NCBI GenBank assembly: GCA_025353525.1
Contig: JANXOO010001148.1
Coordinates: forward strand, 1-11,378
DNA from: Schlesneria sp.
Lineage (GTDB): Bacteria; Planctomycetota; Planctomycetia; Planctomycetales; Planctomycetaceae
DNA length: 11,378 bases
Direction of reading: 5' to 3'
Position numbers and translations under genes: made by a program
The notes under the pieces: generated by a model
Told to the model about the DNA's origin: nothing
What the model saw: only the letters and a program-made list of their open reading frames with translations
Databases searched by the model: none
Shown here: piece by piece, positions 1 to 11,231 of the stretch
Layout: each line of letters opens with the position of its first letter
Position numbering within the stretch: the stretch's first letter is position 1

Positions 1-562
1 GCCGCGATTCGACCAGCGTTCGACCGTACCATGCCGCCAGCCATGTCTGTTGGCCGCCACCCAGCCAGACTCCCGTTGATTCATCAAGAACAACCGAGAA
101 TTCCGGATCGTTCGATTCGGTCCGCGACTGCGAATGAAGCACATCGACCGACTTGACGTCGTATTTCAACCAGTCGTCGCGATATTGCCTGATCGTTCCT
201 TCGTCAACGTTTTCCGCAGGGATGACAACGATGCGGGCATTTCGTCCGCCCGCCAGTTCGATGAATCGCTGGCGAATCATTTCGGAAAGTTGACCTCCGC
301 CCGCAATTAACAGCGTGCCGCCCGATTGAAAGACGTTGGGATACGAACGGCCTTCGACGCGATGCACCCGACGGCGAATTTCCGCTCGCAGGCAGACACC
401 GATCCCGATTGATACGAAGATTGCACACATCCAGAAGACAATCCTGTGGCGCGGTATTTTCCACCAGGTTCGTTGCCCGGTCGATTGTCCTGACTCCGCA
501 GGGGGTCGCCGAGGATCAAGTTTCGCTAGGATGCGCCAAAGAGACTTTGGTTCTGCAGACAT
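1..562 (-). CDS. S51/cyanophycinase-like protein with N-terminal membrane anchor (partial, 3' end outside window)
   Basis: An uninterrupted frame runs from an ATG at 562 to the window edge (187 codons seen, no stop). After about 40 polar, basic residues comes one hydrophobic segment (about residues 41-58, starting IVFWMCAIFV), which suggests a signal anchor. The following domain has GGTLLIAGGGQLSEMIRQRF (81-100), RIVVIPAENV (110-119) and GVWLGGGQQTWL (164-175). This series resembles the start of the peptidase S51/cyanophycinase fold, a class-I glutamine-amidotransferase-like fold: strand and glycine turn, the 'IPAA'-like strand, then the GGxQ turn. In this family the catalytic serine lies shortly after the last motif, so it would fall outside the window and activity cannot be judged. 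True cyanophycinases hydrolyse cyanophycin; many planctomycete relatives have unknown substrates, so 'cyanophycinase' is only a family name here. It is divergent from the SixA-like gene. No good Shine-Dalgarno sequence precedes the ATG. Confidence 0.75.
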   Translation of the reverse strand, partial: MSAEPKSLWRILAKLDPRRPPAESGQSTGQRTWWKIPRHRIVFWMCAIFVSIGIGVCLRAEIRRRVHRVEGRSYPNVFQSGGTLLIAGGGQLSEMIRQRFIELAGGRNARIVVIPAENVDEGTIRQYRDDWLKYDVKSVDVLHSQSRTESNDPEFSVVLDESTGVWLGGGQQTWLAAWYGRTLVESR

Positions 563-9404: not shown

Positions 9405-10082
9405 ATGACATTGGAAAATCGGGCAAATGCTGTGAAAACGAATGATGAAAAAAAGCAACGGATCGGGAAAATCGTACGAGGATTGGCTGCAACGTACCCG
9501 GAAGCTCTGTGTGCCCTGAACCACGAATCGCCGTTTCAGCTTCTTGCCGCCACGATCCTGTCGGCGCAATGCACGGACGAGCGAGTCAATCTGGTGACGC
9601 CGGCCCTGTTCTCAAAATATCCCGCAGCGCCAGAGTTGGCTTTGGCGAAGCAGGACGAACTGGAAGAGATAATTCGCTCGACAGGTTTCTTTCGAAACAA
9701 GGCCACCAATTTGATCGGGATGGCTCGAGCGATTGTTGCAAATCACGGTGGCGAACTTCCCAAAACGATCGAACAACTGGTGCAGTTGCCCGGTGTCGGA
9801 CGCAAAACTGCCAACGTCTTGCTGGGAACGGCATTTGGAATCATCAGCGGTGTCGTGGTCGATACACACGTCAAACGGATCAGCCGCCTGCTGGGATTAA
9901 CCATCAGCGAAAATCCGGAACAGATCGAGCGGGATTTGATGGAACTTGTCCCCCGCAAGGAATGGATCAACTTTTCGCACCGGTTGATTCACCATGGACG
10001 CAAAATCTGTATCGCCCGGCGGCCCCGATGCACTGAGTGCCCATTGTTCGCAAACTGCCTTCGGGTCGGATTGCCCGACTGA
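9405..10082 (+). CDS. nth: Endonuclease III (DNA glycosylase/AP lyase)
   Basis: A 225-aa base-excision repair enzyme that removes oxidised pyrimidines from DNA and cuts at the abasic site. The HhH-GPD fold is complete: [20 protein letters not shown] (residues 43-62), the helix-hairpin-helix [11 protein letters not shown] (128-138) with catalytic Lys134, and [14 protein letters not shown] (151-164) with catalytic Asp153. The C-terminal [4Fe-4S] loop has Cys202, Cys209, Cys212 and Cys218 in the exact C-x6-C-x2-C-x5-C spacing. Length is slightly above the roughly 210 residues of the E. coli enzyme because of a short polar N-terminal extension. The start could therefore be a little later, for example GTG at 9432, but the ATG at 9405 fits the -10 box upstream. 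It is divergent from the DUF309/LON unit. A stem-loop spans its stop codon. Confidence 0.95.
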
Positions 10083-10097
10083 CTCGGTTGTCGGGCA
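10072..10097 (+). terminator. Stem-loop spanning the nth stop codon
   Basis: TGCCCGAC (10072-10079) pairs perfectly with GTCGGGCA (10090-10097) around a 10-nt loop that includes the TGA stop. The stem is GC-rich but no T tract follows, so it may be a Rho-assisted terminator or a 3'-end stabilising hairpin rather than a classical intrinsic terminator. Confidence 0.45.
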
Positions 10098-10223
10098 GAT
10101 TAAAGTCATCCCTCGAATGCAGATTTCATCGAGTTGTTCCGAGAGCGCCGTCAAAATCACGGTTTTGAAAGTCAGCACTTTTTAGACATACGCATCATTC
10201 CTGACGGCGCGGGGCATATCCGA

Positions 10224-10251
10224 TTGACATGCAATCCGTTACGGATAGAAT
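10224..10251 (+). promoter_or_regulatory. Strong sigma70-type promoter before the structured leader
   Basis: A perfect -35 box, TTGACA (10224-10229), is followed after 16 nt by TAGAAT (10246-10251), five of six at -10. It is the best promoter match seen in the window. Transcription would begin near 10258, about 30 nt before the structured RNA element and about 280 nt before the first tatA-like gene, so the transcript would be either a long 5' leader or a separate small RNA. Confidence 0.6.
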
Positions 10252-10287
10252 CTGAGTAGCCGCTCTTCCCTCCTGCTCTCTCGCGGG

Positions 10288-10361
10288 CGAACCGAGTGGA
10301 TGACACGCGTAAATTTCAATCAGGGCGAGATGGTCGCCCGTCGAAATGCGTGTTCGGTTCG
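10288..10361 (+). ncRNA. Candidate structured RNA (tatA leader or small RNA), unrecognised class
   Basis: Four nested helices made only of Watson-Crick pairs: CGAACCGA (10288-10295) with TCGGTTCG (10354-10361); ACACGC (10303-10308) with GCGTGT (10348-10353); ATTTC (10313-10317) with GAAAT (10343-10347); and GGGCGA (10323-10328) with TCGCCC (10334-10339), closed by a 5-nt loop. That is 25 pairs in 74 nt. The 3' strands of the outer three helices are contiguous, whereas the 5' side has bulges of 7 nt (GTGGATG) and 4 nt (GTAA); a 5x3 internal loop precedes the apical stem. A second copy of GGGCGA at 10285-10290 can also pair with TCGCCC, extended to 7 bp by C10284 with G10340, giving an alternative fold. 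A promoter lies just upstream. It does not resemble a tRNA or any riboswitch I can name. The role is inferred. Confidence 0.5.
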
Positions 10362-10373
10362 TGACTGTTGATT

Positions 10374-10423
10374 CCGGATCCAAGTAAAAATCCGGCGAGC
10401 ACGTGTCTGACAATCGGATTTTT
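10374..10423 (+). promoter_or_regulatory. Mutually exclusive hairpins: possible attenuator or terminator
   Basis: AAAAATCCG (10386-10394) pairs perfectly with CGGATTTTT (10415-10423), a 9-bp stem with a 20-nt loop ending in five T residues. Part of the same segment, ATCCGG (10390-10395), can instead pair with CCGGAT (10374-10379). The two stems cannot form together, the layout expected of terminator and antiterminator. The terminator stem is AT-rich, its loop is large and its T tract lies inside the stem, so it would be weak; alternatively it marks the 3' end of a small RNA of about 165 nt. Confidence 0.35.
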
Positions 10424-10450
10424 CCGTTCAGAAATCGGGATAAAGAGCTT

Positions 10451-10476
10451 GTCTCTACGCTTTTGAAAGTAGAGAT
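10451..10476 (+). other. Leader hairpin before the first tatA-like gene
   Basis: TCTCTAC (10452-10458) pairs perfectly with GTAGAGA (10469-10475) around a 10-nt loop, with one extra G-T pair at the base. It lies about 50 nt upstream of the GAAGGAG ribosome site of the first tatA-like gene and adds to the structured leader. Apart from this and the promoter and hairpins listed separately, I see no gene in 10083-10538. Confidence 0.4.
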
Positions 10477-10538
10477 TCACCGCTGTCGTTACTCAAGTTG
10501 CGGTGTTTGATGCTGTAGCGAATTGAAGGAGAATCAAC

Positions 10539-10730
10539 ATGGTTCCCGTTCTTGCCTTTTTGGGTGGGATGGAATTGGTTGTCGTTGGCGGGATCTTCCT
10601 GCTGTTGTTCGGAAGTAGACTTCCATCAGTGATGCGGTCGCTCGGTCAAAGCGTGACATCATTCAAAAGCGGTTTGAACGACACGACCGATCAAGCTCCG
10701 GACGAAAACCTCGACGACAAGAAACGCTAG
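10539..10730 (+). CDS. tatA: Short TatA/E-family twin-arginine translocase subunit
   Basis: A 63-aa protein with TatA layout: a short N-terminus, the polar Glu12 at the start of a membrane helix (ELVVVGGIFLLLFG), the FG hinge, then an amphipathic helix (RLPSVMRSLGQSVTSFKSGL) and a short acidic-basic tail. TatA subunits oligomerise at the inner membrane and form the passage for folded proteins targeted by TatBC. It is shorter than typical TatA (about 80-90 residues). The start is well supported by GAAGGAG (10525-10531) seven bases before the ATG. A long structured non-coding stretch lies upstream, and a second TatA-like gene follows 198 nt later on the same strand. That gap has only a small hairpin (CGGAA/TTCCG near 10847-10862) and no convincing terminator. 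No tatB or tatC is visible. A TatE-like or specialised paralogue is possible. Confidence 0.85.
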   Translation: MVPVLAFLGGMELVVVGGIFLLLFGSRLPSVMRSLGQSVTSFKSGLNDTTDQAPDENLDDKKR

Positions 10731-10928
10731 TCGAAGCCTCGGCATCAGCGCAGTCAGCGATACCTGATATCGAGGAACGATGCGAAGCCTGATAACGGGC
10801 TCGTACAGAAAAACAGGATCATTGACGGTGTTCCCGCGTGAACTGCGGAACCGGGTTTCCGGTGAATGTGACATTGATTGCGGTGAACTTTAAAAAACCA
10901 CGAATTACTCAAATCAAGGAATAACTTC

Positions 10929-11231
10929 ATGTTTCCGATCGCGTTTATTCCAGGTGTTGGTCCTTTTGAAATGATCGTTGTCGGGATCATTGCCTTGTTG
11001 CTGTTTGGCAAAAGGCTTCCCGAAGTGGCGAAAAGCCTGGGAAAGGGTGTTGTCGAATTCAAAAAGGGATTGCGTGGAATCGAAGACGATATCGACGTGA
11101 ATGCCCATTCGTCGCGAGGCGACAGCAATTCCCGGCCGATCCACCGGGATGAAAGTGTCCAGACATCGGCGCCCAAATTCGAGCCACCGACATCGGAACC
11201 GGTCGATTCGCAAAAATCAGAATCAAACTGA
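10929..11231 (+). CDS. tatA: TatA-family twin-arginine translocase subunit (second copy)
   Basis: A 100-aa protein with the canonical TatA pattern: GPFEMIVVGIIALLLFG (membrane helix with Glu14 near its start and the FG hinge), then KRLPEVAKSLGKGVVEFKKG (27-46) as the amphipathic helix. A long polar, Ser/Pro/Glu-rich tail (about residues 55-100) is probably disordered. It matches the TatA consensus more closely than the first copy. AAGGA (10916-10920) lies eight bases before the ATG. The two genes are clearly paralogous in their first 45 residues but have unrelated tails, suggesting old duplication and divergent roles, or mixed oligomers. It is probably co-transcribed with the first copy, since no terminator separates them. 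Neither tatB nor tatC is nearby. Confidence 0.9.
   Translation: MFPIAFIPGVGPFEMIVVGIIALLLFGKRLPEVAKSLGKGVVEFKKGLRGIEDDIDVNAHSSRGDSNSRPIHRDESVQTSAPKFEPPTSEPVDSQKSESN

Follow-up and report, generated by a model that had tools for sequence, protein, structure and literature searches.

A candidate leader RNA shared by tatA and tatC operons in the family Planctomycetaceae

What occupies the 456-nt gap between the stop codon of nth (10082) and the ATG of tatA (10539) in a Schlesneria sp. genome? The window, i.e. the whole stretch of DNA analysed (11,378 nt; GenBank assembly GCA_025353525.1, contig JANXOO010001148.1, forward strand), encodes by Pfam a HhH-GPD base-excision protein upstream of this gap and two TatA_B_E proteins downstream. 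The gap itself, whose size an earlier note on this DNA had given correctly, holds a near-consensus sigma-70 promoter followed, 8 nt past the -10 box, by a structured RNA region (Table 1). That note offered two readings, a leader that regulates the Tat genes in cis or a small RNA independent of them. Our analysis of homologues gives good support to the leader, through covariation and synteny, and speaks against the small RNA, through association with both tatA and tatC.

Table 1 Features of the nth-tatA gap and the genes that follow it.
Feature	Position	Strand	Basis
Sigma-70-type promoter, -35 TTGACA (10224-10229), -10 TAGAAT (10246-10251)	10224..10251	+	sequence and homologues
P1 5' strand, CCGCUC (GCUC invariant in 84 unique cores)	10260..10265	+	core alignment
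P1a 5' strand, CCUGC	10272..10276	+	93.8% of cells paired
P1a 3' strand, GCGGG	10283..10287	+	core alignment
P3 5' strand, CGAACC (CRAACC in many relatives)	10288..10293	+	complementarity, covariation
P1 3' strand, GAGUGG	10294..10299	+	504/504 cells paired, 84 unique cores
P2 5' strand, GACACGC in the window	10302..10308	+	complementarity, covariation
Inner hairpin, GGGCGA/UCGCCC	10323..10339	+	window fold; in 1/105 unique leaders, the window's
P2 3' strand, GCGUGUU	10348..10354	+	complementarity, window fold
P3 3' strand, GGUUCG	10356..10361	+	complementarity, covariation, window fold
Shine-Dalgarno-like GAAGGAGAA preceding tatA	10525..10533	+	sequence
tatA1 (TatA_B_E, PF02416)	10539..10730	+	Pfam, E 2.8e-9
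tatA2 (PF02416)	10929..11231	+	Pfam, E 3.7e-14

Promoter and hairpin in the window

The promoter, described earlier as a perfect TTGACA with a good -10 box, has a 16-nt spacer and agrees with the consensus at 11 of 12 positions. It is the sole promoter-like site in 10080-10940; since shuffles of this region average 0.9 such sites, the window promoter alone is not beyond chance. The hairpin claimed downstream of it was recovered at 10287-10362 with its four helices, and with 26 nested pairs where 25 had been counted; only the larger bulges, not all of them, lie on the 5' side. None of 200 shuffles was as stable (z -3.84), in agreement with the claim that such pairing is unlikely by chance. The fold of 10258-10475 gave z -3.02 (2/200 shuffles as stable), and that of 10260-10362, which includes the 5' domain, a z of only -1.90 (6/200). 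This 40-nt 5' domain (10260-10299), lying 5' of the hairpin, is the most conserved stretch of the element.

The repeated GGGCGA was indeed present at 10285-10290 and 10323-10328. However, the idea that it offers two alternative partners to TCGCCC did not hold in homologues: among 105 unique leaders a single one, the window's, has the inner hairpin, so the arrangement is not conserved, and 9/105 combine a GGGCGA core with some downstream TCGCCC.

Distribution and association with tat genes

In a DNA search of 99 relatives, the best matches fell on the promoter together with the 5' domain. R1, a covariance model for the 42-nt core built from 19 sequences (L025 being left out of the 20-locus alignment A1), matched 41 of the 99 relatives at E<=0.1, with at least two matches in 22 of the 41. 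Across the phylum, R1 matched 15 of 392 genomes at E<=0.01; two of these genomes lie outside the family, and their loci (L132, L133) lack both a clear promoter and a tat gene. Weak matches (23-26 bits, E<=0.1) in 4 of 38 genomes of other families likewise had neither. An exact-pattern scan of genome contigs returned at least 60 loci, and R1 scored all 60; among those listed, 58 carry planctomycete names and two are titled only 'bacterium' isolate RI_301. A broader model built on 84 unique cores (R2) matched 95 of 170 genomes of the window's family at E<=0.01 (at least two matches in 67 of the 95) and was without a match in the other 75 at E 0.01. Of the 49 matched among 297 genomes of the class, 48 belong to the family; the sole outsider (L319) lacks both promoter and tat gene. 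Matches with neither clear promoter nor tat gene were judged by eye to be chance (L132, L133, L278, L281-L285, L318, L319). Apart from such chance-like matches, the predicted element was found to be restricted to Planctomycetaceae. Three records titled Candidatus Kuenenia stuttgartiensis (L141, L159, L187) also carry it; as the remaining titles indicate Planctomycetaceae or close relatives, these three titles may be misassigned.

In all, 121 loci that overlap between collections yielded 77 unique cores (L132 and L133 excluded), or 84 once tatC loci were added; the unique-leader set omits L132, L133, L116, L158, L163 and L182. Among these homologues, a predicted promoter is conserved ahead of the element beyond chance. 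Within the 50 nt that precede the core, 90 of 105 unique leaders have a site with at least 10 of 12 consensus positions, compared with 0-1 of 105 in each of five shuffles, and none of the 105 has one inside the leader at +60..110. With the threshold lowered to 8/12, the counts were 101/105 upstream, 6-13 after shuffling and 7 inside the leader. The 101 leaders with a recognised promoter show a perfect TTGACA in 69, a 16-nt spacer in 93 and a distance of 6-16 nt from -10 box to core in 96.

The neighbouring genes were highly consistent. With tatA and tatC profiles built from the element's own neighbour proteins (five representative Tat proteins being confirmed by Pfam), a co-directional tatA or tatC followed within 1.5 kb at 115 of 121 loci, the nearest being tatA in 70 and tatC in 45. 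Of the other six, three sit at contig ends with 62-188 nt remaining, two are weak promoter-less matches in other families, and one is L116. Typically, a genome has one copy before tatA and one before an unlinked tatC; the window's genome also has its tatC copy (contig C144), recognised by eye and by R2. The earlier note had held that occurrence away from tatA would favour a small RNA or dispersed repeat. The element does occur away from tatA, but the copies there nearly always precede tatC, which favours a leader over a dispersed small RNA. Covarying pairs and synteny with tatA, named there as support, were both found; they concern the 5' domain as well as helices P2 and P3 of the hairpin.

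Starting from the genes gave a compatible picture. PF00902 finds TatC in 58 of 59 genomes. The family's 33 tatC loci represent 32 distinct ones, as two are the same place; R1 matched directly upstream in 17 of these at E<=0.017 and in five more at E 0.05-0.41, one of the 22 being an R1 training sequence, and 10/32 had no match directly upstream up to E 0.41. Four R1 matches elsewhere in these loci all had E >=2.7. No R1 match lay directly upstream at 26 tat loci from other families, where the one weak match (15.5 bits) was about 1.1 kb from the gene. Ten weak R1 matches were inspected: three precede tat genes (one also among the family tatC loci), one closely copies a tatC leader but is an orphan, and the other six lack promoter and tat gene. 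Of fourteen R2 matches inspected (drawn from more than 150 in the family, plus one at class level), 11 precede tat genes, one precedes a small TatC-like ORF and two lack promoter and tat gene.

Several loci deserve separate mention. The tandem tatA pair of the window (10539-11231) recurs widely, at least two TatA matches being found at 66 of 70 tatA element loci. At L116 (G024:C197) and L316 (G029:C93), the leader precedes an ORF for a small membrane protein of 76-83 aa, which starts 184 nt and 189 nt after the core start, respectively. The product of the L116 ORF is similar to the C-terminal portion of TatC (PF00902 positions 161-208, E 5.7e-4, 20.2 bits, below the curated cut-off of 25.1), and fliN, which lies farther from the leader than this ORF, was rejected as its target; a database search with the L316 protein gave two proteins. 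L279 (G029:C183) nearly duplicates the tatC leader of the same genome and has a promoter, but no tat gene follows it; perhaps it is what a duplication left behind after decay, or else an RNA that stands alone. In three genera, an ORF of about 630 aa resembling a membrane protein lies just upstream of tatC (cluster c5; L126:4038-5945), with an N-terminal zinc-ribbon-like stretch (Pfam match below cut-off).

Helices P1, P1a, P2 and P3

The 5' domain forms P1 and P1a. Invariant in all 84 unique cores are G3, C4, U5 and C6 of the 5' strand and G35, G37, G39 and G40 of the 3' strand. Every one of the 504 P1 cells is paired, 13 one-sided changes keep the pairing, and a G-U pair is kept in 79 of 84 cores. 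Two P1a pairs show one both-side change each. Taken together, P1 and P1a have 97.2% of cells paired, compared with 30-49% for slid partners; column shuffles still reach 96.9% because the core columns hardly vary, so that covariation hardly tests P1. The apical loop of P1a has 4-10 nt and is C/U-rich (C 0.42, U 0.37, G 0.09). An anti-Shine-Dalgarno role of its CCUCC was considered and rejected, as the loop bases are not conserved.

Beyond GCGGG, CRAACC pairs with GGUUYG (P3) in many leaders, and GGACNNCC, which is the P2 5' strand in many other genera and begins at the last two G's of P1, pairs with GGNNGUCC (P2). Lineage-specific versions of P2/P3 include GGCCAACT/AGTTGGTC, GGCAAATC/GATTTGCC, GGACAGC/GCTGTCC and TGGGTACC/GGTACCCA. 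In 103 unselected leaders (two of the 105 were too short), the joint P2+P3 score averaged 1.94 sd above dinucleotide shuffles; it exceeded 2 sd in 51 and 3 sd in 33, and stayed at or below 2 sd in 52. For 68 non-redundant, likewise unselected leaders, their own P2/P3 partners beat those of swapped leaders with z about 10 (0/5000 permutations). This result held separately for tatA (35) and tatC (33) leaders and for P2 alone and P3 alone, and the covarying partners lie up to about 130 nt apart. When six strand pairs were tested, self-complementarity exceeded chance for a single one, the P1 3' strand with +58..200. Thus, comparison of sequences supports four predicted helices: P1, and P1a too, by conservation, and P2 and P3 by covariation.

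The helix boundaries were examined by anchoring each helix on its non-overlapping part, which kept 18 of the 68 leaders (z >=1.5). P2 runs on into both G's of GAGUGG in 13/15 cases, and P3 runs on into GAG at about chance (8, 2 and 1 of 15 for the first, second and third base). That P2 takes the contested GG and P3 halts at the P1 boundary suggests that the GAGU between P3 and P2 keeps its GCUC partner. The simplest single structure would then be an H-type pseudoknot in which P1 abuts P3, the first loop holds P1a, the last loop holds P2, and two G's are probably contested between P1 and P2. Of its two crossing helices, P3 covaries, whereas P1 is paired in all 84 cores yet hardly varies. Counted on 12 leaders (alignment A3), the pseudoknot had 97.3% of cells paired, with 30-43% for slid partners and 94.1% for column shuffles; these counts are illustrative, as the leaders were picked for visible P2/P3 and A3 was trimmed at P3. 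L094, L136 and related tatC leaders, whose core recurs in records titled Gimesia (e.g. L140), carry an extra helix such as GAGUGGGUACU/AGUACCCACUC that crosses P3, presumably a lineage-specific competing or pseudoknotted pairing.

Possible function and relation to known RNAs

We consider it rather probable that the element is a family-specific cis-regulatory RNA that leads the tatA1-tatA2 message, with a second copy leading the tatC message, that adopts a pseudoknot and that responds to a common signal. Its own strong promoter would start transcription so that the leader becomes the 5' end of the tatA1-tatA2 message, and the second copy would form the 5' leader of a separate tatC message in the same genome. 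The strand GCGGG-CRAACC-GAGU-GGACNNCC would pair by segments, with CCUGC (P1a), GGUUYG (P3), GCUC (P1) and GGNNGUCC (P2), and P1 would cross P3 with zero nt between them while P1 and P2 compete for the two G's. A common signal, either a small ligand or an RNA-binding protein, would shift this fold, and the shifted fold would set how much both Tat operons yield, so that TatA and TatC stay in proportion. The element thus probably tunes both parts of the Tat machine together. A narrower proposal, which we put forward tentatively and regard as rather unlikely, is that a pseudoknot aptamer confined to Tat genes (tatA, tatC and the small TatC-like protein) senses the state of protein export and co-sets the unlinked operons.

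How such a fold would be read out was approached by scanning for known devices. The element is a conserved structured leader before functionally linked genes, as expected of a riboswitch, but both expression platforms looked for, an intrinsic terminator and Shine-Dalgarno sequestration, stayed at chance level. Terminator-like sites occurred in 19 of 105 leaders and in 11-19 of the shuffled ones, and there was none in 10080-10940 of the window; an intrinsic terminator was therefore rejected. Sequestration of the Shine-Dalgarno sequence by the 5' strand or the P1 3' strand was rejected as well, a leader's own strands being no more complementary than strands of different leaders (the score was reached in 1441 and 492 of 3000 permutations). 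Accessibility of the start site changed in no common direction between the folds, the Shine-Dalgarno region being freer with P1 in 7/29 leaders and with P2+P3 in 5/29. As neither terminators nor Shine-Dalgarno complementarity exceeded chance and accessibility changed in no common direction, we infer that control would act through ligand- or protein-dependent folding of the 5' end.

Instead of a pseudoknot, P1 and P3 might belong to mutually exclusive folds; in the P3 fold, the 5' strand, rich in pyrimidines, would be released and open to Rho, to a nuclease or to some other factor. In keeping with this strict two-state switch, the minimum-energy fold of 10260-10362 (P3+P2+P1a) and its centroid (P1+P1a+P2) are only 2.2 kcal/mol apart, although the energy model cannot score a pseudoknot. 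The same limit applies to 29 leaders picked for clear P2/P3, whose counts are illustrative: the forced folds lay within 5 kcal/mol in 23 (range -13.0 to +4.8), with P1 lower in 18 and P2+P3 lower in 11. Pyrimidines make up 68-79% of the 5'-strand loops and G 9-12%; in the boundary cases given above, P2 captures the GG of P1; and 8 of 14 Schlesneria tatC leaders have CTCGAA as their P3 partner, whose pairing through the GAG of P1 makes P1 and P3 mutually exclusive there. Against this, P3 extends into P1 about as often as chance would give, which is what a GAGU retained in P1 would predict. We regard the strict switch as possible, albeit on the unlikely side, and the pseudoknot as somewhat more likely.

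The pseudoknotted cis-regulatory leader also has to be weighed against simpler roles. A passive 5'-terminal structure that protects tat messages from decay or aids translation, free of any signal, would explain why P1 lies near the inferred 5' end, at the short distance from the -10 box noted above, and why the terminator and Shine-Dalgarno scans detected no read-out device; yet a protective stem would require less sequence conservation and no strand with several partners, and the element keeps to tat genes instead of serving many different messages, which makes this reading improbable. Still less can be said for an independent small RNA encoded upstream of the tat genes: the element has its own promoter and one orphan copy stands without a tat gene (L279 in G029), but terminators, which such an RNA should show between element and tat gene, are not in excess there, and its association with tatA and tatC at unlinked loci is not that of a gene at one fixed place. 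Least credible, and very improbable in our judgement, is an element that works as DNA, be it an operator or an extended promoter. Its invariant bases do adjoin the conserved promoter, but the variable length of the P1a apical loop argues against it, as do the retained G-U pair of P1 and the far-apart covarying partners.

To our knowledge, how bacteria balance TatA and TatC is little understood. A leader shared by two unlinked tat operons, with a structure open to testing, in a family whose genera Gimesia and Schlesneria we take to have cultured members, would make this question experimentally accessible, and a Tat leader would provide a handle on post-transcriptional control in planctomycetes.

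Riboswitches and the pseudoknotted leaders of ribosomal-protein messages are the general kind of RNA that the element resembles. It shares with them a structured, conserved and pseudoknot-capable 5' leader that serves a single pathway at unlinked operons; it differs in having no Rfam match and no recognisable terminator or Shine-Dalgarno platform, its ligand or protein being a proposal. Specifically, Rfam 15 gave no covariance-model match in the window at E<=10, consistent with the earlier note, which knew no class for it, and none of six matches at E<=1 in the loci of six relatives overlapped the element. No structured leader RNA of tat genes appeared in the titles and opening parts of abstracts of the open-licence literature matches listed, and a term search of the main texts of selected RNA discovery papers did not return tat genes. 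Accordingly, we could not match the element to a described RNA. The Rhodopirellula-1 motif is likewise a candidate RNA from Planctomycetes, but the table that lists it, with no Rfam number in its row, gives Proteobacteria as well, and by that description it is set apart from an element found only in the window's family, chance-like matches aside (Weinberg 2010, PMC2864571). The nearest case of RNA-based tatC control that we encountered is Mcr7 of Mycobacterium tuberculosis, a small RNA predicted to pair with the tatC ribosome binding site (PMC4038636). Compared by description, Mcr7 acts in trans, whereas the element would be a cis leader common to tatA and tatC in another phylum (PMC4038636).
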